A stretch of DNA of 63,049 nucleotides, taken from assembly GCA_028714315.1 (NCBI GenBank), contig JAQTMN010000006.1, forward strand, positions 1 to 63,049. The letters are read 5' to 3'. The notes beneath the pieces were generated by a model. The model did no database searches. It was not told the DNA's origin and worked only from the letters and a program-made list of their open reading frames with translations. The DNA is from Sulfuricella sp. GTDB taxonomy: Bacteria; Pseudomonadota; Gammaproteobacteria; Burkholderiales; Sulfuricellaceae. The position numbers and the translations under genes are program-made. Below are positions 43,861-61,293 of this stretch, piece by piece (positions within the stretch are counted from its first letter, which is position 1; the number at the start of each line of letters is the position of its first letter).

Positions 43861-44286
43861 TTATTTGCAGCTGGCGGGCAAATATTTCTTGGGGATGGTG
43901 CCACCGCAAGTCCAGTTTACCGTGCCGGTGGCAGTGTCGCCGGCGCCGGTCAAGGTAACCGTGTTGCCATTTACTGCAGTATTAATGTTTTGCGCAAAAG
44001 CGGCAATTGAACCGGCAGTACTGCTAGTGCCGGTCCAGGTCACCGAGGAAACCTTGTTGGTCGCGGTATCGAACCCTACCGATCCGGTTCCCGGCATTAC
44101 CCCCTTGGTCTGGAAAAATTCCGCTACCGGAACCTTGCCGGCGGTCGCGGCCAACACGACTTCGCTGACCTTGGCGCGAACCGTATAATCCTGGTAAGCG
44201 GGCAGCGCCACAGCGGCCAGAATGCCGATAATCGCAATCACGATCATCAGTTCGATAAGCGTGAAACCTTGTTGCATTGTTTTCAT
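43861..44286 (-). CDS. pilA: Type IV pilin PilA
   Basis: The 141-residue prepilin starts [39 protein letters not shown], with prepilin-peptidase cleavage after glycine and Glu5 of the mature chain conserved. The rest is a Thr/Ser-rich globular head that ends with a disulfide pair ([17 protein letters not shown]). AAGGAG lies six bases before the ATG at 44286; an earlier in-frame codon is not used. It has a sigma-54 promoter upstream and a terminator downstream. The Thr/Ser-rich head offers many O-glycosylation sites. Confidence 0.95.
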
Positions 44287-44343
44287 GTCGAGCTCCTTTG
44301 GTGAATGTAACAGCAACACTCGGAAGTGTCTGCTCGTTACAAA

Positions 44344-44500: not shown

Positions 44501-46153
44501 TCAGGCTGAAGCCCGGCTCAATGGAGCCATAAATCCCGGTATCCCGGCTACATCCACCTTATCGATCTGCCCCGGCTCCAGAAACTGCTCGGCATACTTC
44601 AGGTAAACCTTCTCGCGGATGAACACGTCGAACAAATCCGGGTCGATGTGGTGCTCTTCCTTCATGAACCCCAGTATCCGCAGCGATTCGGTCAGGGTTT
44701 TGCCCGGCTTGTAGGGGCGGTCGCGGGCGGTGAGGGCTTCGAAGATGTCGGCGATGGCCATGGTCCGGGCCTGGATCGACATCTGCCCGCCCGTCAGCCC
44801 TTTCGGGTAGCCCTTGCCGTCCATGCGTTCGTGATGACCGCCGGCGTATTCCGGCACGCGCTTGAGGTGCTTGGGCCAGGGCAGGGCTTCGAGCATCTTG
44901 ATGGTGGCGACGATGTGGTTGTTGATGATCTCGCGCTCCGCGTCGGTCAGCGTGCCTTTTGCGATCTTGAGGTTGTTCGCCTCGTCGTCCGACAGGAAGG
45001 GAGCGTTTCCCCCGTTTTCGTCCACCCAGACGTGGCGGGCGATGGCTTCTACCCGTTCCTGCTGCTCGGGTGTCATGAATTCGCCGCCGATGTTGCACTT
45101 GCGCAGGAATTCGCGGTCGGCGTCGAGCTGGCCGATGCGTTGCGCGTAGGCCTGCTCCAGCGCGTCGAGGTCATCCTTGTTCCCTTGTTCCAGACTGGCG
45201 ATCCTGGCGTTGAGCAGTTCGATGCGGGCGTCGCGCTTCAATACCTCGAAGCGGGTGTCGATCAGGTGGATGCGGTCGAACAGGGTGTGCAGCTTGGTGG
45301 CCTTGTCCACCACGTGCACCGGCGTGGTGATCTTGCCGCAGTCGTGCAGCAGGCCGGCGATTTTCAGCTCCTTGCGGTCCGCCTCGGTCATGCGGAAATC
45401 CTTGAGCGGGCCGGCGCGGGTGGTGCTGGCCGCTTCCGCCAGCAGCATGGTGAGCACCGGCACGCGCTCGCAGTGGCCGCCGGTATAGGGCGATTTTTCG
45501 TCGATGGCGATGTTGATCAGCTTGATGAAAGCCTCGAACAGGTCTTCCAGCTGCTTGATCAGCAACTGGTTGGTCAGCGCGATGGCGGCCTGGGAAGCGA
45601 GGGACTCGGTCAGGCGCTGGTCGGCGTGGGAAAACGGGACGATCACGCCGCTGCTCTGGTCCTTGGCGTTGATCAGCTGCAATACGCCGATGATTTCGTT
45701 TTCGTGGTTTTTCATCGGGATGGTGAGAAAGGATTGCGAGCGGTAGCCGGTGTTCCGGTCGAACGCGCGCGTGCCGGAAAAGTCGAACCCTTCCGTGGTG
45801 TAGGCGTCCTCGATGTTGACCGTCTTGTCGTGCAGCGCCGCGTAGACGGCCACCATCGAGTTGTTGGGATTGCCCTTCGCGTCATACAGGGGCAGCAAGT
45901 CGAACGGGATCGGCGTCCCCGTGGTGCCGCCCATGGCGATGCCCAGCGTATCGTTGCGCATGATCTCGAAACGAAGGCAGCGGCCGCCTTCCGCCATGCG
46001 GTACAAGGTGCCGCCGTCCGCGTTGGTGAGGTTTTTGGCGGCGAGGAGGATCGCTTCGAGCGTCCGGTTGGTATCCTTTTCCGCGGACAGCGCGACGCCG
46101 ATGGCGTTCAGCTGCTCCAGGCGGTCGAGGAGGTCGTTGTTCGAGTTGTTCAT
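44501..46153 (-). CDS. GAF - HD-GYP cyclic-di-GMP phosphodiesterase-like protein
   Basis: The 550-residue protein has no transmembrane segment. Residues about 25-195 are a GAF domain (TLEAILLAAKNLTNADGGTLYRM, SFLTIPMKNHENEIIGVLQLINAKD). Residues about 215-515 are an HD-GYP domain with YTGGHCERVPVL, the metal site LLHDCGKITTPVHVVDK near residue 268, GGHHERMDGKGYPKGLTG near 441 and ADIFEALTARDRPYKPGKT. In HD-GYP proteins this GYP triad hydrolyses c-di-GMP to GMP. An insert with charged helices sits between HD and GYP. It likely affects pilus or motility control; AAGGAA precedes the ATG. Confidence 0.92.
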   Translation of the reverse strand: MNNSNNDLLDRLEQLNAIGVALSAEKDTNRTLEAILLAAKNLTNADGGTLYRMAEGGRCLRFEIMRNDTLGIAMGGTTGTPIPFDLLPLYDAKGNPNNSMVAVYAALHDKTVNIEDAYTTEGFDFSGTRAFDRNTGYRSQSFLTIPMKNHENEIIGVLQLINAKDQSSGVIVPFSHADQRLTESLASQAAIALTNQLLIKQLEDLFEAFIKLINIAIDEKSPYTGGHCERVPVLTMLLAEAASTTRAGPLKDFRMTEADRKELKIAGLLHDCGKITTPVHVVDKATKLHTLFDRIHLIDTRFEVLKRDARIELLNARIASLEQGNKDDLDALEQAYAQRIGQLDADREFLRKCNIGGEFMTPEQQERVEAIARHVWVDENGGNAPFLSDDEANNLKIAKGTLTDAEREIINNHIVATIKMLEALPWPKHLKRVPEYAGGHHERMDGKGYPKGLTGGQMSIQARTMAIADIFEALTARDRPYKPGKTLTESLRILGFMKEEHHIDPDLFDVFIREKVYLKYAEQFLEPGQIDKVDVAGIPGFMAPLSRASA

Positions 46154-46451: not shown

Positions 46452-46901
46452 CTACAACCACATCGCATCCCACAGCGGGTAATCCGCAAGGCGCGCCACA
46501 AGGCCTGCCCGCAATGGATTCGCAACGATATATCTCGCAATATCAACAATATCTTCCTCGCTGCGCAGCGCATGTTCGTGATAACCCCGTTGCCAAACAG
46601 CGCCATTCTCGCGGGAGCGGTGGTTGATGGTTCTTGCGCTGCGACCCTTTAGCAGACGCATCGCATCGCCAAGTTTCGATCCTTCGCCTAGCGCCAGCAA
46701 CCAATGAAGGTGGTCGGGCATGATCACCCATGCCAAGGACTGCACGACCTTGGTCTCGTCCAGCAAGCGCATTTCCGCCACCAAAAGGCGGGCGTTGCCA
46801 AAATCCTCGAATCGGCGGGCGCGTCCATGGGTGACGGCGGTGACCAGGTAGGTTTGACCTGGCAGGGAGGCACGGCCTTTTAACAGATCGGTGTAGGGCA
46901 T
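46452..46901 (-). CDS. REP-associated tyrosine transposase (RAYT, Y1/IS200-like)
   Basis: The 149-residue protein is a Y1 HUH nuclease: YLVTAVTHGRARRFEDF, WVIMPDHLHWLLALGEGS with the HUH motif as HLH near residue 66, and NGAVWQRGYHEHALRSEEDIVDIARYIVANPLRAGLV, where the tyrosine of QRGYHEH is the likely nucleophile. RAYTs differ from IS200 by not having left and right ends of their own; they act on REP palindromes. This gene is flanked by a REP array on one side and REP copies on the other, the expected REPtron arrangement. It looks intact. Confidence 0.9.
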   Translation of the reverse strand: MPYTDLLKGRASLPGQTYLVTAVTHGRARRFEDFGNARLLVAEMRLLDETKVVQSLAWVIMPDHLHWLLALGEGSKLGDAMRLLKGRSARTINHRSRENGAVWQRGYHEHALRSEEDIVDIARYIVANPLRAGLVARLADYPLWDAMWL

Positions 46902-47050: not shown

Positions 47051-49420
47051 CTATTTAATACACACCGCCCGCACCTGCTTCAGGTCGGTGATGCCCTGCA
47101 ACACCTTCTCGATGCCGTCCTGCTTCAGGGTGCGCATGCCTTCGCCCAGCGTGGTGGCGAGCATTTCCGCGACGCGGGCGTGTTCCTGGATGTTTTTTTT
47201 GATGGCGTCGGTGCCCACCAGCAGTTCGTGCAGGCCGAGCCGGCCCTTGTAGCCGGTGTTGTTGCAGGCCTCGCAGCCGACCGGGTCGTAGAGCGTGAAC
47301 TGGCCCTTGTCGTTGGCGAACTGTTTGACCCAGTCCTTGTAAATGGCTTCCATCGCGGCCTTGGGGTCTTTTTTCCAGGAATCGATATTGGCGAGTTCGA
47401 GGCAGTATTCGTTGAGCAGGTGCTTGATGTCGTCGGCGCCGGCGACGCGCGCTTTCTTGCACTTCGCGCACAGCCGCTTCGCCAGGCGTTGCGCCAGGAT
47501 GCCGAGCAGGGCATCGGCGAAGTTGAACGGGTCCATGCCCATGTCGAGCAGGCGGATGATCGATTCCGGCGCGCTGTTGGTGTGCAGCGTGGCGAACACC
47601 AGGTGGCCGGTGAGCGAGGCTTCGATGCCGGTGGAAACCGTTTCCTTGTCGCGCATTTCGCCCACCATGATCACATCCGGATCGGCGCGCAGGAAGGCGC
47701 GCATGGCGATGGCGAAGGTCAGTCCGGCCTTGGGGTTCACCTGTACCTGGCGCAGGCCCTTCTGGGTGATTTCGACCGGGTCCTCGGCGGTCCATATCTT
47801 GGTTTCCGGCGTATTGAGGTGTTTCAGCACCGAATGCAGCGTGGTGGTCTTGCCGGAGCCGGTCGGCCCGCACACGAAGAACAGGCCATAAGGCTTGGCG
47901 ACCACTTCCTTCAGCGTTTTCAGGTTGTAGTAGGAAAGCCCCAGTTTTTCCAGCGGAATCGGTTCGCCGGCGGCGAGGATGCGCATCACCACGTCCTCCA
48001 CGCCGCCCGCGGTGGGCAGCGTGGCGACGCGCAGCTCGATGTCGAGCGGGCCGAATTTCTTGAACTTGATTTTGCCGTCCTGCGGCTTGCGCTTCTCCGA
48101 GATGTCCAGGTCGCACATGATCTTGAGCCGCGCGATCAGGGCGTTGCGATAGCTGGCGGGAATTTCGATGTAAGGCCCGAGCGTGCCGTCGCGGCGGAAG
48201 CGCACTTCGATTTTTTCCTTGCCGGCGCCGGGTTCGATGTGGATGTCGGACGCGCCCTGGTGATAGGCGTCGATGATGATCTTGTTGACCAGCTTGACCA
48301 GCTCGTTGTCGGCGGCAGCGCTGATCTCGTCGGCGGCGGCTTCCTCCGTGCCGTCCTCCTCCAGGTTGGAAAGCAGGTCGCCGATGGACGCGCTGCCGCC
48401 CCCTTCGCCGAAAAACAGGTCGATGGTTTGCTCGAATTCGCGCAGGGTGGTGGTGAGGTAGACGAGGTTGTGCTTGGGGAACACGTTGGCGGCGATGCGC
48501 GAGGTTTTGATTTTTTCCGGGTCGGGCGTCAGAATCGCCAGCCCTTGCGTCGTCTCCTCGATCGGCAGCCACTGGCTGTTTTCGACGTACTCGCGCTTGA
48601 GGTTCCTGAGCAGGTCCATCGGCTTCATCCGGTCGGCGCGGAACGGTTCGTAGGGCACCTGATAGAACGCAGCGATGGATTTGCCGAGATCGCCGGTCCT
48701 GACCTGGAACTCGTCGATCAGCACATCTTCGAGATTTTCGCCCTTTTTGCGCGCGGCGCGGCTGGCGAGTTCGAGTTCGCCCACGGAAAGAAGATTTTCG
48801 CCGATGAGGTGATCGAACTTGGTCCTGATCCCCGGTGCCGGGGCCCGGCGCTGCTCGAAGGCGATGGCCAGCGTCTTCGCCAGCTCGCCCGATCCTTCCA
48901 GCGCGGCGGGCGGAAACGGCAGGCCGGACAGGGTGTTGATCAGCTGCACCACGCCGAGCAGTTCGCCTTCTTCGCTGACGATCGGTGCGACCAGCATTTG
49001 CCTGGTGCGGTAGCCGGTTTTCTGGTCCACTTCCTTGAGGAAGCGGATTTTCGGGCTGAAGCTGGCGAGTTCCTGTTCGTCGTACACGTCGGCAACGTTG
49101 ATCGCCGTCTTGTGGAAGGCGACGTAGCCGGCCATGCTGGCCGGCGAGATCGGCAGTTTCAGATCCTTGAAGCCGGTCAGCCCGGTCTTGACCTTGGAAA
49201 CGATGGCGGCGCCGTCGTCGCTCACCGCGTAAATCGTCAGCCGGTCCGCCTCGAACAGCGCGCAGATGTCGGCGCCGAGCTCCAGCATGATTTCGTCGAT
49301 GTTGCGCGTGGCGTGGATCTTGTTGGTGACCGCCTGGAGCTTTTTGGTGAACACCAGCTTGCGGCTGATTTCGGCCACCGGGTCGCTGGATTTCGTTTCG
49401 ATGGGTTGGGCGACAGTCAT
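47051..49420 (-). CDS. GAF-containing type IV pilus/type II secretion ATPase (PilB/GspE-like)
   Basis: The 789-residue protein starts at ATG 49420. Residues about 30-190 form a GAF domain (IDEIMLELGADICALFEADRLTIYAVS, MLVAPIVSEEGELLGVVQLINT). Residues about 205-335 match the MshEN/T2SSE N-domain, and the rest is the ATPase: VCGPTGSGKTTTLHSVL (Walker A, near 520), the Asp box EDPVEI, Walker B DPDVIMVGEMRDKET, His box LTGHLVFATLHTN and a zinc tetracysteine (CAKCKKA, CEACNNTG). GAF on the front is unusual for PilB and suggests regulation by a small ligand, possibly a cyclic nucleotide. It closes the signalling operon. Confidence 0.9.
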   Translation of the reverse strand: MTVAQPIETKSSDPVAEISRKLVFTKKLQAVTNKIHATRNIDEIMLELGADICALFEADRLTIYAVSDDGAAIVSKVKTGLTGFKDLKLPISPASMAGYVAFHKTAINVADVYDEQELASFSPKIRFLKEVDQKTGYRTRQMLVAPIVSEEGELLGVVQLINTLSGLPFPPAALEGSGELAKTLAIAFEQRRAPAPGIRTKFDHLIGENLLSVGELELASRAARKKGENLEDVLIDEFQVRTGDLGKSIAAFYQVPYEPFRADRMKPMDLLRNLKREYVENSQWLPIEETTQGLAILTPDPEKIKTSRIAANVFPKHNLVYLTTTLREFEQTIDLFFGEGGGSASIGDLLSNLEEDGTEEAAADEISAAADNELVKLVNKIIIDAYHQGASDIHIEPGAGKEKIEVRFRRDGTLGPYIEIPASYRNALIARLKIMCDLDISEKRKPQDGKIKFKKFGPLDIELRVATLPTAGGVEDVVMRILAAGEPIPLEKLGLSYYNLKTLKEVVAKPYGLFFVCGPTGSGKTTTLHSVLKHLNTPETKIWTAEDPVEITQKGLRQVQVNPKAGLTFAIAMRAFLRADPDVIMVGEMRDKETVSTGIEASLTGHLVFATLHTNSAPESIIRLLDMGMDPFNFADALLGILAQRLAKRLCAKCKKARVAGADDIKHLLNEYCLELANIDSWKKDPKAAMEAIYKDWVKQFANDKGQFTLYDPVGCEACNNTGYKGRLGLHELLVGTDAIKKNIQEHARVAEMLATTLGEGMRTLKQDGIEKVLQGITDLKQVRAVCIK

Positions 49421-49425
49421 GGCAT

Positions 49426-50196
49426 TCAGGCTTTTAAATTGAACAGTTGCCCATTCGAAAGCATGCGCGGCCGGAATTCCGCCGCGGACGCCATTATTTC
49501 CTTCATGGTGAGCTCGATCTCGTTCGGCTTCAAGTGGGTAATGTAGATTTCCGCCGGCCGCCGCAGCTTGCGCAAATCCTCGGCGAGCAGGCTGGGGCAA
49601 TAGTGCTTGGCGAGGACGGCGAGTTCCTTCTCGCGTTCGCAAAAGGCGGTTTCGATGATCAGGTAGCGCAGGTTTTCGATCCGGTTGACCGCTTCCCACA
49701 AGGCGTCGCAGGTGGTGGTGTCGCCGGAAAAGACCAAGCTGTGCGCGCCGCTGTCGATGTGAAAGCCGACGGTGGGCACGACATGGTTGGCGGGCAGCGG
49801 CGTGATCCTGCGGCCGCCGAGTGCCACCGTTTCGCCGAGGGCGATGGTTCGATACGCCATGAACGGTTTTTCCGCGCTGGGGATGACGCTGAAATCCGGC
49901 CAGATGTGCCAGTTGAACAGGTGCTGCTTGAGCACCAGCTGGGTTTCCGCGGTGGCGTGCAGGGTGATCGGCTTGTCGCGCAGCCAGCCCACGGTGTCCA
50001 CCAGGAACGGGATGCTGGCGATATGGTCGAGATGGGCGTGGGTGATGAAAATGTGGTCGATGCGCCGGAGTTCCTCCAGCGTCAGGTCGCCCACGCCGGT
50101 GCCGGCGTCGATCAGGATGTCGTCATCGAGCAGGAACGAGGTGGTGCGCAAATCCTTGCCGATGCCGCCGCTGCAACCGAGTACTTTGAGTTTCAT
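49426..50196 (-). CDS. Metallo-beta-lactamase-fold cyclic nucleotide phosphodiesterase
   Basis: The 256-residue protein has the MBL signature ITHAHLDHIASIP near residue 52, the metal residues in PANHVVPTVGFHID and FSGDTTTCDALWEAV, and a final THLKP. The overall form matches class II-type 3',5'-cyclic-AMP phosphodiesterases and other MBL-fold hydrolases. It lies six bases before the ATPase gene and downstream of an adenylate cyclase, so hydrolysis of cAMP is the likely role. A glyoxalase or RNase-type MBL function cannot be excluded by motif alone. Confidence 0.82.
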   Translation of the reverse strand: MKLKVLGCSGGIGKDLRTTSFLLDDDILIDAGTGVGDLTLEELRRIDHIFITHAHLDHIASIPFLVDTVGWLRDKPITLHATAETQLVLKQHLFNWHIWPDFSVIPSAEKPFMAYRTIALGETVALGGRRITPLPANHVVPTVGFHIDSGAHSLVFSGDTTTCDALWEAVNRIENLRYLIIETAFCEREKELAVLAKHYCPSLLAEDLRKLRRPAEIYITHLKPNEIELTMKEIMASAAEFRPRMLSNGQLFNLKA

Positions 50197-50218
50197 ATTT
50201 GGTTTTCCGGAAATCGTT

Positions 50219-50343
50219 GGCCGCGAAAAGGCGCAAAAAACACAAAAAGACAGCTTGTAGCTGGTAGCTTGCAGCGGGTAGCTAAAGCGAGTGCGTCGCC
50301 AGCTACCCGCTATTTTCTTGTGTTTTTTGTGCCTTTTCGCGGC
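50219..50343. mobile_element. Palindromic element family E, short form
   Basis: GGCCGCGAAAAGGCGCAAAA opens at 50219, and its inverted form closes at 50343 (about 28-bp ends). The middle has its own inverted repeat around AGCTACCCGC. It lies between cyclase and phosphodiesterase genes. The same ends bracket 57255-57487. Confidence 0.7.
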
Positions 50344-50367
50344 TATCGGCTTGCTGTTGCAATTCGC

Positions 50368-52593
50368 TCATTTGGCGTGAAACACGAACACGCCGTCCCA
50401 CTCCGCGCCGGGAGGGTGCTCGCGGAAATAGGCGATCCGCTCCAGGTACAGATCATAAACCGGGCGTGCTTCGGCCTGCCGCAAATTGAGCAGATGCAGT
50501 TCCGCCAGGTCCCAGTCCTGCGCGCGATACAGCCCGATCGCCGTCTGGAATAGCGCGCGTTCGTCAAGCGCGGGCATTTCGACCTGTCCGGTCAGGCCGA
50601 GCGGTTCGTAAATGGCAACCGGCTTGTCCTTGCCCTTGACCCTGACCCGGTCCAGCTCGCGGAACACGAACTCCTGGTTCAGGATTTTCTGCGTGTTTTC
50701 GCCGACGATGATGCCGGCGCCGTATTGCTTGGTCAGGCTTTCCATGCGCGAGGCGAGGTTGACCGAATCGCCCATCACGGTATAGGCCATGCGGAATTCC
50801 GAGCCCATGTTGCCGACGCTCATGCTGCCGGTGTTCACGCCGACGCCGATCCTGATTTCCGGCCAGCCTTCGGCTTTGAACTTTTCCCGCAGGGCGGCCA
50901 GCGCGGCCTGCATTTCCAGCGCCGCGAGCACGCCGTGGCGCGCGTTGTCGGGGTCGGCGAGCGGCGCGCCCCAGAACGCCATGATCGCGTCGCCGATGTA
51001 TTTGTCGATGGTGCCGCGCTGCTTGTGGATGATCTGCGTCATCGGCGTGAGATATTCGTTCATCAGCCGGCTGAGCTGCTTCGGGTCCAGCCCTTCGGAA
51101 ATGTTCGTGAAGCCGCGCACGTCGGAGAACAGCACCGTCATTTCCCGGCTTTCGCCCTCCATGGTGAAGTTTTCCGGATTTTCGCTCATCTCGTCCACCA
51201 GTTCCGGCGGCACGTATTGCCCGAACAGTCCGGTGATCTGGCGCTTGGCGCGCGATTCGACGAAAAAGCCGTAGGACATGCTGAGGATGAACTGGGCCGC
51301 GACCATCAGCATGGTGGCGGCGAGCGGCATGACCATGTTGGCGTATTGCCACAGCGCGAGATTGATGCCGACGACCACCGTCAGCGCGGCCAGCGCGGCC
51401 AGCGTGGCGCGTATCGGGCTGAGCAGCGGCAGGGCAACCGCAAGCAGGAGGCCGAGCAGCAGCATTTCGCTGAGGTCGGCGCCGAGCATGTAGGCGGGCT
51501 TTTCCTTGATGTTGCGGTCCAGCATGCCGGCGATCAGGTTGGCGTGGATTTCCACGCCGGGATACACGGTGCCGACCGGGGTGGAGCGCAGATCCATCAG
51601 GCCGGGCGCGGTGGTGCCGACCAGGACGATGGCGCCGGCCAGTTCCCGCGCGTCGACCCGGCCGTGCAGCACGTCGGTCGCGGAAAAATAGGGAAAGCTG
51701 CCCTGCTTGCCGCGATACGGCACCAGCGCGCTGACGTTTTCGTCCACCGGGATTTTCAGCTGGCCGACGCCGAGCCATTCCAGCGCATCGCCGACGTTGC
51801 CGGCGCCGGTTTCGAAGCCTGGGCGCAACGGCTGGTCGCCGGCCAGCGTGCGCATCATCGCCAGGGAAAGCGCTTCGTAGTAGGCGCCATTGTATTCCAT
51901 CAGCATCGGCACCCGCCGCGCGACGCCGTCGAAATCGGTCATCGGGTTGAAATGGCCGGCGCCGTGGGCGGCCTGCTGGAATTGAGTGAGGTTCGCGCCG
52001 TAGCCGCTGGCGTCGATGAAGGCGGTGTTGCTGGTTTTGAGCGCGCCGGACGGCAGCGAGGCGGCGGGCAGCTGCCCCGATACCCGGTTTTGGTTGTTGG
52101 TGAAATAGTAGCCCAGCACCACCGGACGCCCGGCCAGCTTCTGGGCGAAGAGGCGGTCATGGTCGAGCTGCGGGCGCAGCTGCGCCAGCCGGGCCTGGAA
52201 CTGGGGCAGGTCGCTCAGTTCCTTCTGGCCGAGCCGCTCCAGCACTTTCAGGCCGGAACTTTCGTCCTTTTCGGCAAACACCACGTCGAAGCCGACCGCC
52301 TTTACGTGGTCGCGCTCGAACAGCTGGTCCAGCATCGCCGCCAGCTTGTCGCGCCCCCACGGCCAGCGCCCTTCCTCGGCCAGGCTCTTTTCGTCGATAT
52401 CGACGATGGCGATGCGCCGGTCCAGCGTTTGCGGCATGGTGAGCCGCAGCCTCACGTCGTAGCTGATCGCCTCGATACTCCGGATCAGGGGGATTTCAAA
52501 GATTTTCGCCGCGTGCAGCAGGAACGGCAGCAGCATCGCCACGCCCAGCGCGATGGGAATGACGTGTTTTTTCAGCGCCGGGGCCAGCTTCAC
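50368..52593 (-). CDS. CHASE2-domain adenylate cyclase (class III)
   Basis: The 741-residue protein has an N-terminal transmembrane helix, a CHASE2 sensor (about 35-350: RSIEAISYDVRLRLTMPQTLDRRIAIVDIDEKSLAEEGRWPW), three helices (370-450) and a class III cyclase domain (485-670). Catalytic elements are VLFSDVRGFTNISEGL (metal Asp), IDKYIGDAIMAFWGAP with a Lys for adenine, YTVMGDSVNLASRME with Asp, Asn and Arg. The Lys/Asp pair indicates cAMP rather than cGMP. It begins with GTG overlapping the FHA gene stop. An external signal would set cAMP, which the next gene could degrade. Confidence 0.93.
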   Translation of the reverse strand: MKLAPALKKHVIPIALGVAMLLPFLLHAAKIFEIPLIRSIEAISYDVRLRLTMPQTLDRRIAIVDIDEKSLAEEGRWPWGRDKLAAMLDQLFERDHVKAVGFDVVFAEKDESSGLKVLERLGQKELSDLPQFQARLAQLRPQLDHDRLFAQKLAGRPVVLGYYFTNNQNRVSGQLPAASLPSGALKTSNTAFIDASGYGANLTQFQQAAHGAGHFNPMTDFDGVARRVPMLMEYNGAYYEALSLAMMRTLAGDQPLRPGFETGAGNVGDALEWLGVGQLKIPVDENVSALVPYRGKQGSFPYFSATDVLHGRVDARELAGAIVLVGTTAPGLMDLRSTPVGTVYPGVEIHANLIAGMLDRNIKEKPAYMLGADLSEMLLLGLLLAVALPLLSPIRATLAALAALTVVVGINLALWQYANMVMPLAATMLMVAAQFILSMSYGFFVESRAKRQITGLFGQYVPPELVDEMSENPENFTMEGESREMTVLFSDVRGFTNISEGLDPKQLSRLMNEYLTPMTQIIHKQRGTIDKYIGDAIMAFWGAPLADPDNARHGVLAALEMQAALAALREKFKAEGWPEIRIGVGVNTGSMSVGNMGSEFRMAYTVMGDSVNLASRMESLTKQYGAGIIVGENTQKILNQEFVFRELDRVRVKGKDKPVAIYEPLGLTGQVEMPALDERALFQTAIGLYRAQDWDLAELHLLNLRQAEARPVYDLYLERIAYFREHPPGAEWDGVFVFHAK

Positions 52594-53342
52594 CGGAGAT
52601 AGAACTCCATCTTGATCCCGCCGAGTTCGATCACGTCGTGATCCGCCAGCTGGCGCGGATGGGCGTCGAGCGCCTGGCCGTTCACCGCCGGCCGCCGGTC
52701 GCCCTGGACGTGGGTGACGAAATAGCCGTGCGGGCGCCGGGTGATCACCGCGACCTGCACGCCGGGCTTGCCGAGCGAGGTCAGGGTCTTGTTCAAGTCC
52801 AGTTCCTTGCCGGCGTTCGGGCCATTGAGAATCTGGATCGCGGCGCGGTTTTCCTCCGGTTTTGCCGGCTCCGGCGGGATTTCCGCCGGCGGCGCGGCCT
52901 CCTGGCTGGCCGGTTCCGCCATGGGTTCGCGGTGCTCGGCCAGGGAAATGGTATGCGCGCCGAGATCGCTGCCGCCCTGAGTCGGGACGATCGCCGGTTT
53001 GTCTGGAATCGCGGGTTTGTTGAAATCGGCCGGTTCTTTTCTGGCGCCGATGGCCTCGGGATTGGCGTAGCGCAGGCGATACTTGCCGATTTCGATCTCG
53101 TCGCCATGCTGAAGCGGTGCCCGCCCGATTGGGGCGTCGTTGACCAGGGTGCCGTTGGTGCTGCCCAGGTCTTCCACGTAGGACTGGCCGTGGAGGGTGG
53201 TGACGGCGACGTGCTCCCCGCTCACCGCCAGGTTGTCGATGACGATATCGTTGTGCGGCTTGCGCCCGATGGTGACGCGCTCCTTGCCGAGTTCGAGCTC
53301 GGTGATCGGTTGTCCGTCCAGGGTTACGATCAGTTTCGCCAT
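52590..53342 (-). CDS. FHA-domain protein with two FHA-like domains
   Basis: The 250-residue cytoplasmic protein has a first FHA domain (residues 20-95) with the phosphothreonine-binding motifs VTIGRKPHNDIVID, VSGEHVAV and DLGSTNGTLVND. A Pro/Ala-rich linker follows, then a second, more degenerate FHA-like domain (170-250: IQILNGPNAGKELDLNKTLTSLG...). FHA domains bind phosphothreonine on partners of Ser/Thr kinases. It is located between a PP2C phosphatase and the cyclase, so it is the expected adaptor for the CHASE2 kinase. Confidence 0.9.
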   Translation of the reverse strand: MAKLIVTLDGQPITELELGKERVTIGRKPHNDIVIDNLAVSGEHVAVTTLHGQSYVEDLGSTNGTLVNDAPIGRAPLQHGDEIEIGKYRLRYANPEAIGARKEPADFNKPAIPDKPAIVPTQGGSDLGAHTISLAEHREPMAEPASQEAAPPAEIPPEPAKPEENRAAIQILNGPNAGKELDLNKTLTSLGKPGVQVAVITRRPHGYFVTHVQGDRRPAVNGQALDAHPRQLADHDVIELGGIKMEFYLR

Positions 53343-53355
53343 CAGTCTATCCCCC

Positions 53356-54133
53356 TTATTTCAGCCAGGTGCGCAGCCGGGCCAGGACGCCCCGCCTGGC
53401 CGGAAAGTCACGCAAGATCCGCACCAGGATGACCGACACGTTGTCGCGCCCACCGTTGTCGTTGGCCATCCGCACCAGCTGGTTCGCGGCCAGCTTGGGA
53501 TTGGCGCCGAAGGTGCCGAGGGTGAGCCGGATGTCCTCGTCGGCGACCATGTCGTTGAGGCCGTCGGAGCACAGCAGGTAAATGTCGCCCGGCAGCGCGG
53601 CGTGTTCCTGGATTTCCACCGCCACCGTCGGGTCGACGCCGAGCGCGCGGGTGACCAGGTTTTTGTTGTGCGACCGCCTTGCTTCTTCGCGGCTCACCAT
53701 GCCGCTGTCGATCTGCTCCTGCAGCAGGGAATGGTCGCGCGTGACCTGCTCCAGCCGCGCCTCGCGGTAGCGGTACAGCCGCGAATCGCCGATGTGCGCC
53801 ACGGTGACGCGGTTGTCGTGGAACAGCGCGAACACCAGCGTGGTGCCCATCCCGGAAAACTGGGGCTGGCTTTGCGCCGCCTGGTGGATGGCGGCGTTGG
53901 TTCGCTCGATCTCGGTCTGGACCAGCGGGCTCGTTTCCCCGTCCGCCAGGCCGTCGCGCAGCGCCGATTTCAGGCTGTCGGACAGCATCGTCACGGCGAT
54001 CCCGCTGGCCACCTCGCCGGCGTTGTAGCCGCCCATGCCGTCGGCGAGGATGACGAAACCTGCTTCGGCATCGACGGCGAGGCTGTCCTCGTTGTGCGAG
54101 CGCACCTTGCCTGGGTCGGTCAGGCTGGCGATG

Positions 54134-54156
<23 letters not shown>
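53356..54156 (-). CDS. PP2C-family serine/threonine phosphatase
   Basis: The 266-residue protein has the PP2C motif set: KVRSHNEDSLAVD, the metal site FVILADGMGGYNAGEVAS, GMGTTLVFALFH, VAHIGDSRLYRYR, DIYLLCSDGLNDM and the terminal GGRDNVSVILVR. This is the Stp1/PppA type that reverses Ser/Thr kinase phosphorylation. It overlaps the kinase gene by 23 bases, which gives coupled expression of kinase and phosphatase. No membrane segment is present, and the length is normal. Confidence 0.94.
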
Positions 54157-56698
<2,542 letters not shown>

Positions 56699-56797: not shown

Positions 56798-57238
56798 ATG
56801 GATCTGATTCTATGGCGCCACGCCGAAGCCGAGGACGGCTTCCCCGACGAGGCGCGCAAGCTTACCGCCAAGGGCGGTAAACAGGCGGCGAAAATGGCGG
56901 CGTGGCTCAAGGCGCAGCTGCCGGCCGATGCCCTCATCCTGGTCAGCCCCACGGCTCGCACCCGGCAAACGGCGGCCGCGCTGACCGAGGATTGCCGTAT
57001 CGCCGAGGCGGTCGCACCCGGCGCCTCCGCCGCCGCCGTGCTCGCCGCCGCCGGCTGGCCGGATGCCCAAGGGACGGTCGTGGTGGTGGGTCATCAGCCA
57101 ACGCTGGGAGAAGTGGCGGCTTACCTGCTCGCCGATAGCCGCGACAGCTGGAGCATCAAGAAAGGCGCGGTGTGGTGGTTCGGCCGCCGCGAAGCCGAAA
57201 CCGTCTTGAAGGCGGTGATGTCGCCGGAGTTCTTGTGA
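56798..57238 (+). CDS. sixA: Phosphohistidine phosphatase SixA
   Basis: The 146-residue protein is a small histidine phosphatase: LILWRHAEAEDGFPDEARKLTAKG at the start, with the nucleophile His in RHAEAE, LVSPTARTRQTA, and the second active-site GHQPTLGEVAAYLL. SixA removes phosphate from phosphohistidine proteins such as the ArcB HPt domain or PTS proteins. The ATG at 56798 follows AAAGGA. It is divergent from the kinase operon. Confidence 0.88.
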   Translation: MDLILWRHAEAEDGFPDEARKLTAKGGKQAAKMAAWLKAQLPADALILVSPTARTRQTAAALTEDCRIAEAVAPGASAAAVLAAAGWPDAQGTVVVVGHQPTLGEVAAYLLADSRDSWSIKKGAVWWFGRREAETVLKAVMSPEFL

Positions 57239-57254
57239 GCCGATAAAAACTATT

Positions 57255-57487
57255 GGCCGCGAAAAGGCGCAAAAAGCGCAAAATAAATACGGCGTCCTCG
57301 ATCCGGGATTTTCCTGATTTTAGCCACCAACCTAAGCTTGAAGGATGGATCGTGTCGAAGTGCTGGAGCGTAGGAGCGGCCTCCCGGCCGCGATGCCGGT
57401 ATTCGCGGCCGGGAGGCCGCTCCTACACGTTCCATTGAACATTGTGGCTAAGCCAGTTTTTTTGTGTCTTTTGCGCCTTTTCGCGGC
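57255..57487. mobile_element. Family E element containing a nested family B element
   Basis: The outer ends GGCCGCGAAAAGGCGCAAAA (57255) and its inverted form (to 57487) match those at 50219-50343. Inside lies a family B element from about 57309 to 57455 with the palindrome GTAGGAGCGGCC ... GGCCGCTCCTAC and the flanks TTAGCCACCAACCT and GAACATTGTGGCTAA seen at 41890-42033. This is one palindromic element inserted into another. Confidence 0.72.
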
Positions 57488-57504
57488 TAACAAGGGTTTG
57501 ATAA

Positions 57505-58125
57505 GTGAAAACCATCCTGATCGCCAATCCCAAGGGGGGCAGCGGCAAGACCACGCTGGCGACCAATCTCGCCGGCTATCTCGCCGGCCGGGGCAGCCGC
57601 GTGCTGCTGGTCGATCTCGACCGCCAGCGTTCCGCCACCGACTGGCTGGCGCGGCGGCCGGACGCGCTGCCGGCGATTCGCGGCTGGAACGGCCAGAGCG
57701 ACAAAAAGGCCATGGGCGACGCCCGCCCCGACTGGCTGGTGGTGGATTCGCCCGCCGGCATGCACGGCGACAAACTGACCAACGCGCTCAAGCGGGCGGA
57801 GCGGGTGATCGTGCCGGTGCAGCCGTCGGCCTTCGACATGGCGGCGACGCGGCATTTTCTCGACGCGCTGCGCGCGGAAAAATCGGTGCGCAAGGAGAAA
57901 ATCGGGGTGGCGATGATCGGCATGCGGGTCGATGCCCGCACCCGCGCCGCCGCCGACCTGTCCGCCTTCCTCGACGAAGCCGGCTTCCCGGTGCTGACCC
58001 TGCTGCGCGACGCGCAAATCTACGTCCAGGCCGCCGGCGAAGGCTTGAGCCTGTTCGACATGGCGCCGTCGCGCACCGCCCGTGAAATGGAGCAGTGGCA
58101 GCCTTTGCTGGACTGGCTGGGGTAG
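57505..58125 (+). CDS. ParA/MinD-like ATPase without a partner gene
   Basis: The 206-residue protein begins at GTG 57505 with AAGGG upstream. It has the deviant Walker A NPKGGSGKTTLATNLA near residue 8, the DLDRQRSATDWLARRP segment, the Walker A' DWLVVDSPAG and no membrane anchor. This is the ParA family that positions DNA, chemoreceptors, or pilus proteins. No parB is adjacent. A role in positioning is possible; a plasmid-type origin is not supported. It is followed by repeats and the CYTH-CHAD gene. Confidence 0.82.
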   Translation: MKTILIANPKGGSGKTTLATNLAGYLAGRGSRVLLVDLDRQRSATDWLARRPDALPAIRGWNGQSDKKAMGDARPDWLVVDSPAGMHGDKLTNALKRAERVIVPVQPSAFDMAATRHFLDALRAEKSVRKEKIGVAMIGMRVDARTRAAADLSAFLDEAGFPVLTLLRDAQIYVQAAGEGLSLFDMAPSRTAREMEQWQPLLDWLG

Positions 58126-58260
58126 TTTTCAGTTGTCAGTTGTCAGTTTTCAGTTGTCAGTTGTGAGTTGTCAGTTTTTTGAGCGGCTGCGCCGCGTGTT
58201 TTTACTGAAAACTGAAAACTGACAACTCACAACTCAAAACTCAAAACTCAAAACTCAAAA
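58126..58260. repeat. Short tandem CAGTTGT / CAAAACT repeats
   Basis: The left half repeats TCAGTTGTCAGTT four to five times, then a GC-rich core (GCGGCTGCGCCGC) follows, and the right half repeats the complement, ending with AAACTCAAAACTCAAAA. The array forms a long imperfect hairpin that reaches the start codon of the CYTH-CHAD gene. Confidence 0.7.
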
Positions 58261-59808
58261 ATGAACAATACCGAAATCGAGCTCAAGCTCCTGATCGATC
58301 CCGCCGACGTTCCCCGGCTGAGGCGCCACCCGCTGCTCAAGGCGCTGTGCCCGGCCGGGCCGAAAGCGCGCAAGCTGTCCAGCACGTATTTCGACACCGA
58401 CGACTTTCTCCTGAAAAACCGCGACATCGCCCTGCGCGTGCGCCGCGACGGCCGCCGCTGGATCCAGACCGTCAAGGGCGGCGGCAGCGTGCGGGCCGGG
58501 CTGCACCAGCGCGACGAGTGGGAAGCGCCGGTGGCGCATAACCAGCCCGATTTCACCAAGTTCGCCGATGCCGGCGTGGTCAGGCTGTTCGCCGACGAAA
58601 CCTTGCGCCGGCGCCTGCATCCCGTGTTCACCACCGAATTCACCCGCACCATCTGGCTGCTTGAAACCGAAGCCGGCGACCAGGTCGAGATGGCGCTGGA
58701 TCGGGGCGAAGTCCGCGCCGAGCAAGGCAGCGCGCCGATTTCCGAAGTCGAGCTGGAGCTGAAGGCCGGCGATCCGGCCGCGCTTTACGAACTGGCGCTG
58801 GCGCTGCTGGAAGTTGTTCCGCTGCGGCCCGAAAACGCCAGCAAGGCCGAGCGCGGCTATGCCCTGGGCGCGCCGCCGCCGATGCTGCCCGCGGTCAAGG
58901 CGGCAACGCCGGAGGTGGGGCCGGAGATGACGGCGGAGGCGGCATTTCGCGCCATCGCCTGGAACTGCATCGGCCAGTTGCAGGACAACCAGGCCCGTCT
59001 TCAGCATGGCTACGATGCCGAATATATCCACCAGATGCGCGTCGCCGTCCGGCGCCTGCGCTCCGCGCTCAACCTGTTTTCCTCCGCCGCGCCCGCCATC
59101 AAGGACGCCGCGCTGGCCGGCGAGCTGCGCTGGCTGGTCGGCGAGTTGGGCCCGGCGCGGGATTGGGACGTGTTCCTGGCCGAAACGCTGCCGCCGGCGA
59201 TCGAGGCGCGGCCCGACGATGCCGGGCTGGTGCGGCTGCGCCAGGCCGCCGTCGGGATGTGCCAGGCCGCGCGCACGCGGGCGTGCGCGGCGGCGGCTTC
59301 GGCGCGCTACTACCGTCTGCTGCTGGAGCTGGGGCGCTGGCTCTGGCGCGCGCCGTGGCGGGAGGGCGCGTCCGCGGAAACGCTGGCGCTGCTGGACCAG
59401 CCGTTGGCGTCGTTTGCCGCCGCCATGCTCGCCAGACGCCACCGCCGCTTGCGCCGGCGCGGCCGCCGGCTCGACCGGCTGAGCGTGGATGAGCGCCACG
59501 AATTGCGCATCGCGGCCAAGAAAGTGCGCTATGCCGCCGAGTTCTTTTCCGAACTTTACCCGACCAAGGCGGCTCGGGCGTACGTGCAGTCGCTGGCGGG
59601 CCTGCAGGACGAACTGGGCGTGCTCAACGACCAGGCCGTGACCGAACGGCTGCTGGCGCAAATCGAGGCGGGCGGCGGAGATTTGTTGCGGGAACGCGCA
59701 GTCGGCGTGATAATCGGCTGGAATGCCTGCAATACCCGGACACGGCTTGCCGGCATGGCGCGGGTGTGGAAGCGTTTTCGTCGCTGCAAGGTCTTCTGGG
59801 GAGAATAA
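58261..59808 (+). CDS. CYTH-CHAD domain protein
   Basis: The 515-residue protein has a CYTH domain (residues 1-200) with EIELKLLIDPADVPRLRRHP, STYFDTDDFLLKNRDIALRVRR, IQTVKGGG and EVELELKAGDP; this is a triphosphate tunnel fold. The CHAD domain (about 225-500) has HQMRVAVRRLRSALNLF, RDWDVFL and ELRIAAKKVRYAAEFF, with conserved His and basic residues. CHAD domains bind polyphosphate, and CYTH domains hydrolyse or bind tri- and polyphosphates. It lies three bases upstream of a polyphosphate phosphotransferase, so they very likely act on the same polymer. Confidence 0.93.
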   Translation: MNNTEIELKLLIDPADVPRLRRHPLLKALCPAGPKARKLSSTYFDTDDFLLKNRDIALRVRRDGRRWIQTVKGGGSVRAGLHQRDEWEAPVAHNQPDFTKFADAGVVRLFADETLRRRLHPVFTTEFTRTIWLLETEAGDQVEMALDRGEVRAEQGSAPISEVELELKAGDPAALYELALALLEVVPLRPENASKAERGYALGAPPPMLPAVKAATPEVGPEMTAEAAFRAIAWNCIGQLQDNQARLQHGYDAEYIHQMRVAVRRLRSALNLFSSAAPAIKDAALAGELRWLVGELGPARDWDVFLAETLPPAIEARPDDAGLVRLRQAAVGMCQAARTRACAAAASARYYRLLLELGRWLWRAPWREGASAETLALLDQPLASFAAAMLARRHRRLRRRGRRLDRLSVDERHELRIAAKKVRYAAEFFSELYPTKAARAYVQSLAGLQDELGVLNDQAVTERLLAQIEAGGGDLLRERAVGVIIGWNACNTRTRLAGMARVWKRFRRCKVFWGE

Positions 59809-59811
59809 TAA

Positions 59812-61293
59812 ATGTTCGAATCCGCCGAGCTGGGCCACAAGATCGACAAGGCCACTTATGACAAGGAAGTGCCGCCGCTGCGCGAAGCCTTGCTCGAAGC
59901 GCAGATGGATCTTTCGCGCGCGGCGAATTTCCCGGTGGTGATCCTGATCGGCGGGGTGGACGGCGCCGGGCGGGGCGAAACCCTCAACCTGATCAACGAG
60001 TGGATGGACCCGCGCTTCGTCCAGAGCCACGGCATGGGCGCGCCCTCGGACGAGGAGCTGGAGCGCCCGATCATGTGGCGTTTCTGGCGCGCGCTACCGC
60101 CCAAGGGCAAGGTCGGCATTTTTCTCGGCTCCTGGTACACCTGGGATATTCTCAACCGCGTGTTCAACCGCATCAAGAACGCCGACCTCGACCAGAGCAT
60201 GGAACGCACCGTGCGCTTCGAGAAGATGCTCAGCGCCGAAGGCGCGCTGATTCTCAAGTTCTGGCTGCATCTGTCCAAGGACAAGCAGGAAAAGCGGCTG
60301 AAAACCCTGGAAAAAAATCCCAAGACCCGCTGGCGCGTGACCGAGCGCGACTGGATGCATTTCAAGATGTACGACCGCTTCCGCAAGGTGTCCGAGCGCG
60401 TCATCCGCCAGACCAGCACCGCCGAGGCGCCGTGGATCATCGTCGAGGGCGAGGACGAGCGCTACCGCAGCCTGACCATCGGCAAGGTCATCCTGGAGGC
60501 GATCCGCAAGCGCCTCGACGAAACGGCGGCGCCGGTCCACGCGGTGCATGCGCCGCCGCTCTTGCCGTCCATCGACCATCTGCACATCCTGAAAACCCTC
60601 GATCTCGGCCAGAAGCTGACCAAGAAGAAATACGACGAGGAACTGGAAAAATACCAGGGCAAGCTCAACCTGCTCACGCGCAACCCGAAATTCAAGAACA
60701 TCAACGTGGTCGTGGTGTTCGAGGGCAACGACGCCGCCGGCAAGGGTGGCAGCATCCGCCGCCTGACCGGCGCGATCGACGCGCGCCAGTACCAGGTCAC
60801 CCCGATCGCCGCTCCCACCGAGGAAGAACGCGCCCAGCCCTATCTGTGGCGCTTCTGGCGCCATGTGCCGCGCAAGGGCCGGGTCAACATCTTCGACCGC
60901 TCCTGGTATGGCCGGGTGCTGGTCGAGCGGGTCGAGGGCTACTGCTCCAACGTCGACTGGATGCGCGCCTACAGCGAAATCAACGATTTTGAGGAGCAGC
61001 TGGTGAAGAACGACACCGTTCTGGTGAAGTTCTGGCTTTCCATCAGCAAGGAAGAGCAGCTCAGGCGCTTCGAGGAGCGCCAGCAAACCGGCTTCAAGCG
61101 CTTCAAGATCACCGACGAGGACTGGCGCAACCGCGAGAAATGGGATGCCTACGAAATGGCCGTGTGCGACATGGTGGACCGCACCAGCTCGGCGATGTCG
61201 CCGTGGACGCTGGTCGCAGCCAACGACAAGAATTTCGCCCGGATCAAGATATTGAAAACCTTGTGCGAGCGGATCGAGGCGGCGCTCAAGTAG
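59812..61293 (+). CDS. Polyphosphate:AMP phosphotransferase (two-domain PPK2 class)
   Basis: The 493-residue protein has two PPK2 domains. The first (about 40-240) has ILIGGVDGAGRGETLNLINEWMDPRF with a degenerate Walker A. The second (about 295-480) has VVFEGNDAAGKGGSIRRLTGAIDARQYQV, the intact Walker A, and IFDRSWYGRVLVERVEGY, the lid and Walker B. This is the PAP architecture, in which polyphosphate phosphorylates AMP to ADP; the first domain is usually inactive. A GGGGAG site precedes the ATG. Length matches PAP rather than the single-domain PPK2. Confidence 0.9.
   Translation: MFESAELGHKIDKATYDKEVPPLREALLEAQMDLSRAANFPVVILIGGVDGAGRGETLNLINEWMDPRFVQSHGMGAPSDEELERPIMWRFWRALPPKGKVGIFLGSWYTWDILNRVFNRIKNADLDQSMERTVRFEKMLSAEGALILKFWLHLSKDKQEKRLKTLEKNPKTRWRVTERDWMHFKMYDRFRKVSERVIRQTSTAEAPWIIVEGEDERYRSLTIGKVILEAIRKRLDETAAPVHAVHAPPLLPSIDHLHILKTLDLGQKLTKKKYDEELEKYQGKLNLLTRNPKFKNINVVVVFEGNDAAGKGGSIRRLTGAIDARQYQVTPIAAPTEEERAQPYLWRFWRHVPRKGRVNIFDRSWYGRVLVERVEGYCSNVDWMRAYSEINDFEEQLVKNDTVLVKFWLSISKEEQLRRFEERQQTGFKRFKITDEDWRNREKWDAYEMAVCDMVDRTSSAMSPWTLVAANDKNFARIKILKTLCERIEAALK

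Follow-up and report, generated by a model that had tools for sequence, protein, structure and literature searches.

Can a run of six bacterial genes carry a signal all the way to a pilus-type motor? The question is raised by a locus in a 63,049-nucleotide window (the whole stretch of DNA analysed here) from Sulfuricella sp., where a first-pass annotation had noticed six co-directional genes and proposed a complete signal-to-machine path. All six open reading frames are indeed present on the minus strand within positions 47051-56698, and each of the domains named in them scores above its Pfam curated cut-off. The path does not end with them, as a gene for an HD-GYP protein and often one for a pilin follow downstream. 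This continuation of the conserved unit, together with an MshEN domain in the ATPase, had been overlooked at first. Listed 5' to 3' along the minus strand, the features are as follows.

54134..56698, minus strand: CHASE2 - TPR-like linker - Ser/Thr protein kinase, 854 aa (Pfam)
53356..54156, minus strand: PP2C-type Ser/Thr phosphatase, 266 aa (NCBIfam, Pfam)
52590..53342, minus strand: FHA-domain protein, 250 aa (Pfam)
50368..52593, minus strand: CHASE2 - class III adenylate cyclase, 741 aa (Pfam)
50197..50367, no strand: intergenic gap of 171 bp with a dispersed repeat
49426..50196, minus strand: metallo-beta-lactamase-fold (MBL) hydrolase, candidate class II cAMP phosphodiesterase, 256 aa
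47051..49420, minus strand: GAF - MshEN - T2SSE (PilB/GspE-like) ATPase, 789 aa (Pfam)
46452..46901, minus strand: IS200/Y1-transposase-like ORF, outside the conserved unit (Pfam Y1_Tnp, 39.3 bits)
44501..46153, minus strand: GAF - HD-GYP c-di-GMP phosphodiesterase, 550 aa, conserved seventh gene (Pfam)
43861..44319, minus strand: type IV pilin (PilA-like), frequent eighth gene (Pfam Pilin, 73 bits)

By their coordinates, the kinase and PP2C genes overlap by 23 bp, the PP2C and FHA genes are 13 bp apart, the FHA and cyclase genes overlap by 4 bp, and 171 bp separate the cyclase from the MBL gene. Only 5 bp remain between the MBL and ATPase genes with the ATPase start placed at the ATG at 49420, as done here; a longer frame with a GTG start at 49699 overlaps the MBL gene. 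The tight spacing and the single larger gap with its repeat are thus as originally described, but the repeat turns out to be a genome-wide element. It is a 50-nt imperfect inverted repeat (arms 50215-50264 and 50299-50348) belonging to a dispersed family with 125 matches in the same genome, and is therefore not special to the block. A role as the block's regulatory site was rejected on this ground, and because in 42 of 47 loci the cyclase-MBL gap does not exceed 60 bp. The six genes may share one transcript; a scan for promoters and terminators returned counts at chance level.

The gene order is not unique to this genome. All six genes occur in order in 42 of 82 homologous loci, a census drawn from 200 genomes sampled evenly across the same order (Burkholderiales), and in 41 of 80 loci of a named-genome set, which overlaps with the sample so that the two counts are not additive. 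Conservation on this scale across a bacterial order is far beyond chance and bears out the proposal of a unit in which CHASE2 sensing and Ser/Thr phosphorylation are joined with a cyclase and a PilB-like ATPase. Among the named carriers are Sulfuricella, Sideroxydans, Gallionella, Ferrigenium and Azospira, several of them iron or sulfur oxidisers. In Azospira oryzae DSM 21223 the locus (L195) has genes for kinase, PP2C, FHA, cyclase, MBL, a cNMP protein, ATPase, HD-GYP and pilin. No block gene accompanies the ATPase more constantly than the MBL gene, found upstream of it within 3.3 kb in 77 of the 82 loci; the HD-GYP gene follows the ATPase in 65, and a pilin gene lies within 3.3 kb downstream in 43. 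A cyclase of at least 45% identity was not found in the block at 35 of the 82 loci, some of them cut at contig edges and three (L063, L065 and L134) having a more distant cyclase there. Among class- and phylum-level relatives, 16 of 20 had no other block gene found nearby.

The GAF-type ATPase itself was counted in 90 of the 200 genomes, spanning 28 family groups. An ATPase match was obtained in 94 genomes; four of them, with core-domain matches only (G057, G078, G134 and G187), were scored as lacking the GAF-type ATPase, and in three of the 90 (G140, G162 and G174) the gene is split or truncated at a contig end. The census lacks eight of the 90, namely the genome of the window and seven whose contigs are short or split. 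It likewise leaves out 12 of the 94 regions fetched: six family members from outside the sample (L135-L137 and L141-L143), three split-contig pieces (L138-L140) and three other ATPase loci (L144-L146). A plasmid system was considered and rejected, the best 5,000 plasmid records all showing less than 60% identity and none covering 80% of the query, as was a phage system, one scan of viral contigs with six exact peptide patterns having returned no relative.

The incomplete loci bear on whether the block is one system or two. Eight keep only the MBL and ATPase genes (two of these near contig ends), two keep the ATPase alone, and a PP2C-FHA-MBL-ATPase arrangement without kinase or cyclase also occurs. 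Such modular losses, along with an FHA-cyclase gap that is often larger than most of the others (median 70.5 bp), would be expected if two separate modules were simply neighbours: a CHASE2 kinase-PP2C-FHA-cyclase set, and an MBL-ATPase-HD-GYP pilus set whose GAF domains bind another ligand, for instance cGMP. This arrangement seems to us rather unlikely. The PP2C-FHA pair stays with the ATPase even after the kinase and cyclase have been lost, and in 53 of 195 sequences a cNMP-binding/rhodanese gene lies immediately upstream of the ATPase, in 51 of them right after the MBL gene.

Two of the signalling proteins carry CHASE2 domains. In the kinase (Pfam CHASE2 179.7 bits, Pkinase 192.7 bits), the HRDxKPxN, DFG and SPE residues are invariant in 46 of 46 aligned sequences; the apparent TPR-like linker was read by eye, without a library match. 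The phosphatase scores 247.8 bits against the Stp1-type model NF033484 of NCBIfam (cut-off 230) and 52.8 bits against Pfam PP2C_2, and the FHA protein (Pfam FHA, 78.5 bits) has G26, R27, S41, H44, S61, T62, N63 and N68 in 55 of 55 aligned sequences. A second FHA domain was suspected by eye in its C-terminal third; a search for solved relatives of that region gave none that was convincing (best E 0.21). The class III adenylate cyclase signature comprises two metal aspartates, a Lys/Thr adenine pair and an Asn/Arg pair. Matching residues in the cyclase (Pfam CHASE2 196.2 bits, Guanylate_cyc 98.3 bits), D491, D535, K531, T605, N612 and R616, are found in 51 of 51 aligned sequences, and K531 and T605, which we take to be the Lys/Thr adenine pair, would fit an adenylate rather than a guanylate cyclase.

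The candidate enzyme to oppose the cyclase is the MBL-fold protein, in which H53, H55, D57, H58, H138, D159 and H221 are present in 81 of 81 aligned sequences. RNase Z models also match it. It could be an enzyme like RNase Z, or some other phosphodiesterase with no link to cAMP, which would leave the block with no dedicated cAMP off-switch. We consider this doubtful. Pfam PDEase_II (PF02112) matches above its cut-off (39.3 against 23.7 bits), over a short stretch only; a 25-sequence profile of the family finds its best solved relative in the cyclic-nucleotide phosphodiesterase 1 (4OJV, E 1.3e-11); and the constancy of the MBL gene as a partner of the ATPase points the same way.

At the motor end of the proposed path stands an ATPase that is PilB-like, as first proposed, in belonging to the T2SSE family (Pfam T2SSE 392.9, GAF 40.5 and MshEN 26.8 bits, scored on a version 6 residues longer), and yet is an extra paralogue beside the canonical PilB. 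Its nearest family models, with which it shares the T2SSE core, are type IV-A PilB (TIGR02538, 473.4 bits, cut-off 675.65), GspE (TIGR02533, 440.6 bits, cut-off 630.25) and TfpB (NF053534, 395.8 bits, cut-off 850), the last described as a second extension motor. Unlike members of these families, it scores below all three cut-offs, possesses a GAF domain and sits in a signalling block. It was rejected as the cell's ordinary PilB on the strength of its PilB score and of a separate canonical PilB in the genome (L016, 840.9 bits against the cut-off of 675.65), which is followed by a PilC/GspF-family gene (best 393.3 bits, under that model's cut-off). With 16 T2SSE matches in the genome in all, and no PilC encoded within the block, the GAF ATPase might instead modulate the canonical PilB, whether in a mixed hexamer, as a PilC competitor or as a decoy, or power another T2SS-like export process rather than extend a filament. 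This strikes us as improbable, for the motifs of its ATPase core show strong conservation across 90 sequences and a pilin is encoded nearby at about half of the census loci.

The extra paralogue also departs from motors that respond to c-di-GMP. In Vibrio cholerae, the type IV pilus ATPase MshE is gated by c-di-GMP and requires R9, according to the part of the report available (PMC4624772). Like MshE as described there, the block ATPase is a PilB/GspE-family protein with an N-terminal MshEN domain, and second-messenger control is proposed to act on the motor itself; unlike MshE, it has an additional N-terminal GAF domain, its presumed ligand is cAMP, and none of 90 aligned sequences has an arginine at the R9 position (PMC4624772). 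The c-di-GMP motif NF053729 is absent from the 18 NCBIfam families matching the ATPase at E up to 0.001. Control by c-di-GMP through an MshE-type arginine was therefore rejected. The GAF-less sister ATPases behave differently, six of six tested scoring above the cut-off for the c-di-GMP motif, as does an MshE-like ATPase of the same genome (L017, 74 against a cut-off of 38). Among 49 aligned sequences of the clade, 38 have the GAF signature without the c-di-GMP motif and 11 the motif without GAF, so that by sequence signature the two are mutually exclusive in this set.

What the GAF domain may bind is suggested by its relatives. The best solved one is 1YKD, an adenylate cyclase tandem GAF (E 2.7e-26 by single sequence and 8.5e-37 by profile), that of the cyanobacterial cyclase CyaB2. 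Judged by its closest solved relatives, the domain appears to belong to the cyclic-nucleotide-binding type, which supports the earlier suggestion of cAMP sensing at the level of family. Q159, N162 and F169 are present in 90 of 90 aligned sequences, T135 in 87 and T139 in 85. The domain resembles the GAFs of CyaB2 and of cyclic-nucleotide phosphodiesterases in sequence family and in its TGYRT, Q, N and F positions, whereas its output is a pilus-type ATPase (or, in the neighbouring protein, HD-GYP) in place of a cyclase or cyclic-nucleotide phosphodiesterase. NKFDE, a motif of cyclic-nucleotide-binding GAF domains of the CyaB2/PDE type, is only partly kept: its N and F occur in 90 of 90 sequences, and its K and D positions vary. 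Matching residues are not unique to cAMP binders, occurring also in the HD-GYP structure 4MCW, for which we know of no cAMP role, and the GAF of the block's own HD-GYP protein finds its best solved relative in 3LFV, from a cGMP-specific phosphodiesterase, followed by 1YKD. The ligand could therefore be cGMP, as two separate modules would allow. Against such a separation stand the closeness of the ATPase GAF to that of an adenylate cyclase and the presence of a class III cyclase (PF00211) in 90 of 90 genomes with the GAF ATPase versus 58 of 110 without it (Fisher 2.6e-17, uncorrected for phylogeny or genome size).

The HD-GYP protein (Pfam HD_5 141.6, GAF 51.1 bits) displays the motifs of a c-di-GMP phosphodiesterase, its HD, HHE and DGxGY residues being present in 70 of 70 aligned sequences and the final P in 67. 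Its gene follows the ATPase with a median gap of 30 bp in the census, and in the window the conserved unit is interrupted at this point by the transposase-like ORF. As these gaps are short, the ORF is presumably absent elsewhere. Gaps between the HD-GYP and pilin genes are long (median 257 bp, none of 38 at 60 bp or less), so the pilin is probably transcribed apart from the block. The pilin of the window is the only PF00114 match found in its genome, which is 85% complete.

Taken together, the reading we prefer, and consider about equally likely to be right or wrong, is that the block, as one inherited signalling unit, encodes a pilus extension motor gated by cAMP and linked both to c-di-GMP breakdown and to Ser/Thr phosphorylation. 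Two periplasmic CHASE2 sensors would respond to an envelope or environmental cue. One would act through the Ser/Thr kinase, opposed by the PP2C phosphatase, with the FHA protein as a reader of putative kinase targets; the other would drive the adenylate cyclase, whose product the MBL-fold hydrolase would break down as a cAMP phosphodiesterase. Binding of cAMP to the GAF domain of the PilB-like ATPase would switch the motor, cAMP taking the role that c-di-GMP plays in MshE-type motors, whose binding motif the ATPase lacks. A similar signal at the GAF domain of the HD-GYP protein would lower c-di-GMP, so that c-di-GMP-gated motors would lose activity as the cAMP-gated one gains it. The latter would probably use the cell's ordinary machinery for pili to assemble the PilA pilin encoded nearby. 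More tentatively still, with somewhat less than even confidence, we suggest that in this ATPase lineage cAMP directly switches a type IV pilus extension motor by way of the motor's own GAF domain, which takes the place of the c-di-GMP-binding motif, and that the block also destroys c-di-GMP by means of its second GAF protein. With one gene block the cell would thereby trade c-di-GMP-driven for cAMP-driven filaments, under tuning by the CHASE2 kinase, phosphatase and FHA protein.

In well-studied bacteria, cAMP affects pili through transcription (Vfr/CRP), and c-di-GMP acts directly on some pilus motors. A cAMP-gated motor combined with c-di-GMP removal and a eukaryotic-like phosphorylation circuit would, if correct, represent a new control point for attachment and twitching. 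With a c-di-GMP site that has apparently given way to a GAF domain, the rewiring of pilus motors from one second messenger to another can be put to a direct test. The block looks like an undescribed way of switching surface filaments, with its order kept across many environmental bacteria; in agreement with the first-pass annotation, no description of it was found in the literature searched, which covers few subscription journals. One of the closest described systems is the CHASE2-FecR biofilm operon of Burkholderia, in which a CHASE2 sensor kinase is joined by a FecR envelope protein and which uses a histidine kinase and a response regulator; unlike the block, it is described, in the available part of the report, with neither a Ser/Thr kinase nor a cyclase or pilus ATPase (PMC5192318). 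The likeness lies in the CHASE2 sensor kinase, and it extends further in some relatives of the block, where FecR and TPR proteins are encoded near the MBL and ATPase genes.

Pfam searches bear out the six genes that the first-pass annotation had placed in one direction in a single block, and they add two genes downstream and an inserted transposase-like ORF:

56698-54134, minus strand: CHASE2 Ser/Thr kinase
54156-53356, minus strand: PP2C
53342-52590, minus strand: FHA protein
52593-50368, minus strand: CHASE2 class III cyclase
50196-49426, minus strand: MBL-fold hydrolase
49420-47051, minus strand: GAF-MshEN-T2SSE ATPase
46452-46901: IS200/Y1-transposase-like ORF, inserted between the ATPase and HD-GYP genes
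46153-44501: GAF-HD-GYP protein, downstream of the ATPase
44319-43861: type IV pilin, downstream of the HD-GYP gene

By window coordinates, neighbors within the six genes overlap or lie at most 13 bp apart, the sole exception being a 171-bp cyclase-MBL gap (50197-50367). This gap carries a 50-nt imperfect inverted repeat, part of a dispersed palindromic element with 125 matches in its own genome (an 85%-complete assembly, 2.92 Mb over 148 contigs). Further copies lie at 57253-57283 and 57456-57491, upstream of a ParA-like gene, and the Y1-transposase-like ORF is, at a guess, a REP-associated transposase in a genome rich in this repeat. The nearest named record to the N-terminal part of the ATPase is a Sulfuricella MAG (88% identity) among the matches listed, from which very near records may be missing.

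It is nearly certain that the block is a conserved unit in itself. The window's proteins were searched against 94 regions around ATPase homologues; 12 rows were dropped and the 82 loci from an evenly drawn set of 200 Burkholderiales genomes entered a census, which required the same strand as the ATPase, block order, minimum identities of 30-50% and gaps below 3.3 kb. Its counts are lower bounds because contig ends truncate some loci. The MBL gene neighbors the ATPase gene in 77 of the 82 loci, and FHA (66), PP2C (64), cyclase (47) and kinase (45) are likewise kept with it in block order. All six genes stand in order in 42 loci, 40 of them with HD-GYP as well; eight hold the MBL-ATPase pair alone, and in two no further block gene accompanies the ATPase. 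The annotated order is thus found elsewhere, while the six-gene extent was drawn too narrowly, as HD-GYP and pilin are kept besides in 65/82 and 43/82 loci. Median gaps from kinase to HD-GYP are 9, 20, 70.5, 10, 83 and 30 bp in gene order, and the HD-GYP-pilin median is 257 bp; the pilin is therefore a frequent neighbor, probably on a separate transcript. A scan of named genomes matched at least 591 stretches, 558 of which encode relatives; the best 80 include 41 with all six genes in order, at least 9 kb of upstream sequence being available in 56 of the 80. Carriers include Azospira oryzae DSM 21223, Sulfuricella sp. T08, Sideroxydans, Gallionella, Ferrigenium and Rhodocyclaceae. Two metagenome-assembled records titled Bordetella parapertussis (L204, L225) hold blocks like those of environmental relatives, and their titles look mislabelled.

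At class or phylum level, 16/20 loci have no other block gene nearby. One locus of the same order (L259) reads PP2C-FHA-MBL-ATPase-pilin. In three loci with a second GAF type of ATPase (L256, L258, L261), an HD-GYP homologue is encoded close by on the other strand; two of the three also have a CHASE2-cyclase homologue and one an MBL homologue. The ATPase/HD-GYP/cyclase link therefore exists in another arrangement too, though outside the order such a link is not the rule.

The block enzymes look active, judging from orthologues aligned from fetched loci. Kinase motifs (46/46), cyclase metal, purine and transition-state residues (51/51), MBL metal ligands (81/81), HD-GYP motif residues (70/70) and the FHA phosphopeptide site (55/55) are invariant. 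The cyclase has the Lys-Thr pair that marks adenylate-type enzymes.

In kind, the block belongs with the nucleotide-controlled pilus motors, as a variant of them; a full-text literature search, with subscription journals thinly covered, found no published description of it. The best-supported model, to which we give an even chance, has cAMP gating a pilus extension motor; the block's own gene content would lower c-di-GMP, and the kinase-phosphatase-FHA circuit would be part of the same block. Its chief competitors are a pair of loosely coupled modules whose GAF ligand is not cAMP, an MBL enzyme with no relation to cAMP, and an ATPase that modulates PilB instead of acting as a motor.

On the ligand, the best solved relative of the ATPase GAF domain is the adenylate cyclase tandem GAF 1YKD (E 2.7e-26 by single sequence, 8.5e-37 by profile). 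Q159, N162 and F169 are invariant in 90/90 ATPases, and T135 and T139 are Thr in 87/90 and 85/90; in the NKFDE motif, Lys and Asp are not kept among these 90. The HD-GYP structure 4MCW likewise matches this domain, so its conserved residues are no proof of cAMP. For the HD-GYP GAF domain, the cGMP-specific phosphodiesterase 3LFV (E 1.7e-18) ranks before 1YKD (E 3.6e-10), which makes cGMP a possible ligand. By profile, the MBL protein comes closest to 4OJV, cyclic-nucleotide phosphodiesterase 1 (E 1.3e-11), with RNase Z ranking behind it; single-sequence searches do not tell the two apart. A cNMP-binding/rhodanese gene (domains from a Pfam run on one sequence; example at L085:11171-12244) occurs in 53/195 sequences, directly upstream of the ATPase in all 53 and directly after MBL in 51, the other two being without an MBL match. 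It is found in 12/82 census loci, and the window's genome yields no homologue at E up to 1e-10. Class III cyclase PF00211 is present in 90/90 GAF-ATPase genomes versus 58/110 others, in raw counts that ignore kinship and genome size, and CHASE2 in 81/90 versus 61/110. The cNMP-binding gene, the PF00211 co-occurrence and the MBL profile are independent hints as to the ligand.

As to the motor, the ATPase scores under the family cut-offs for PilB, GspE and TfpB. Its own genome encodes a canonical PilB (L016), followed by a PilC/GspF-family gene that itself falls short of its model cut-offs; the genome also encodes an MshE-like ATPase (L017) with the c-di-GMP motif. MshE requires the R9 arginine for c-di-GMP (PMC4624772), whereas 90/90 GAF ATPases have no Arg at the aligned position. 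Class- and phylum-level relatives were added to this comparison. All six GAF-less relatives tested, including two from the order sample, exceed the NF053729 cut-off with no Pfam GAF match, and the second GAF type is without the c-di-GMP motif in 3/3 tested. Of the 49 sequences in the clade alignment, 38 bear the GAF signature but lack the motif; the other 11 have the motif (9 RLG, 2 KLG) and no GAF. In the core tree, the window's type groups with GAF-less ATPases (node with L246, L145 and L146, support 0.998) and the other GAF type falls outside (0.948); support for the window's type as a monophyletic group is weak (0.49). Alignment and placement together suggest that the two input modules were repeatedly exchanged, or gained and lost.

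Several neighbors deserve mention. A divergent cluster at 56798-61293 encodes a SixA-like phosphatase (by eye), the ParA-like ATPase, a CYTH-CHAD protein and a polyphosphate:AMP phosphotransferase; it lies beside the block, in part or whole, in L053, L054, L135 and L136, and CHAD/SixA homologues are near it in L154, L159 and L195. After the pilin, a 584-aa ORF (42070-43824) that matches no Pfam or NCBIfam family at E values up to 0.001 has a homologue in 18/194 other sequences searched; our guess is that it is possibly a pilin O-glycosylation enzyme. In five loci of another genus in the same family (L063, L065, L137, L141, L142; Pfam run on L063 only), MBL-ATPase is preceded by a more distant CHASE2 cyclase and a homologue of M48 peptidases. 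Homologues of TPR/SlipAM and FecR-domain envelope proteins (Pfam run on L091; FecR also on L256) lie near MBL/ATPase in L054, L091, L095, L136, L138 and L256, and might partner the CHASE2 sensors in the periplasm.
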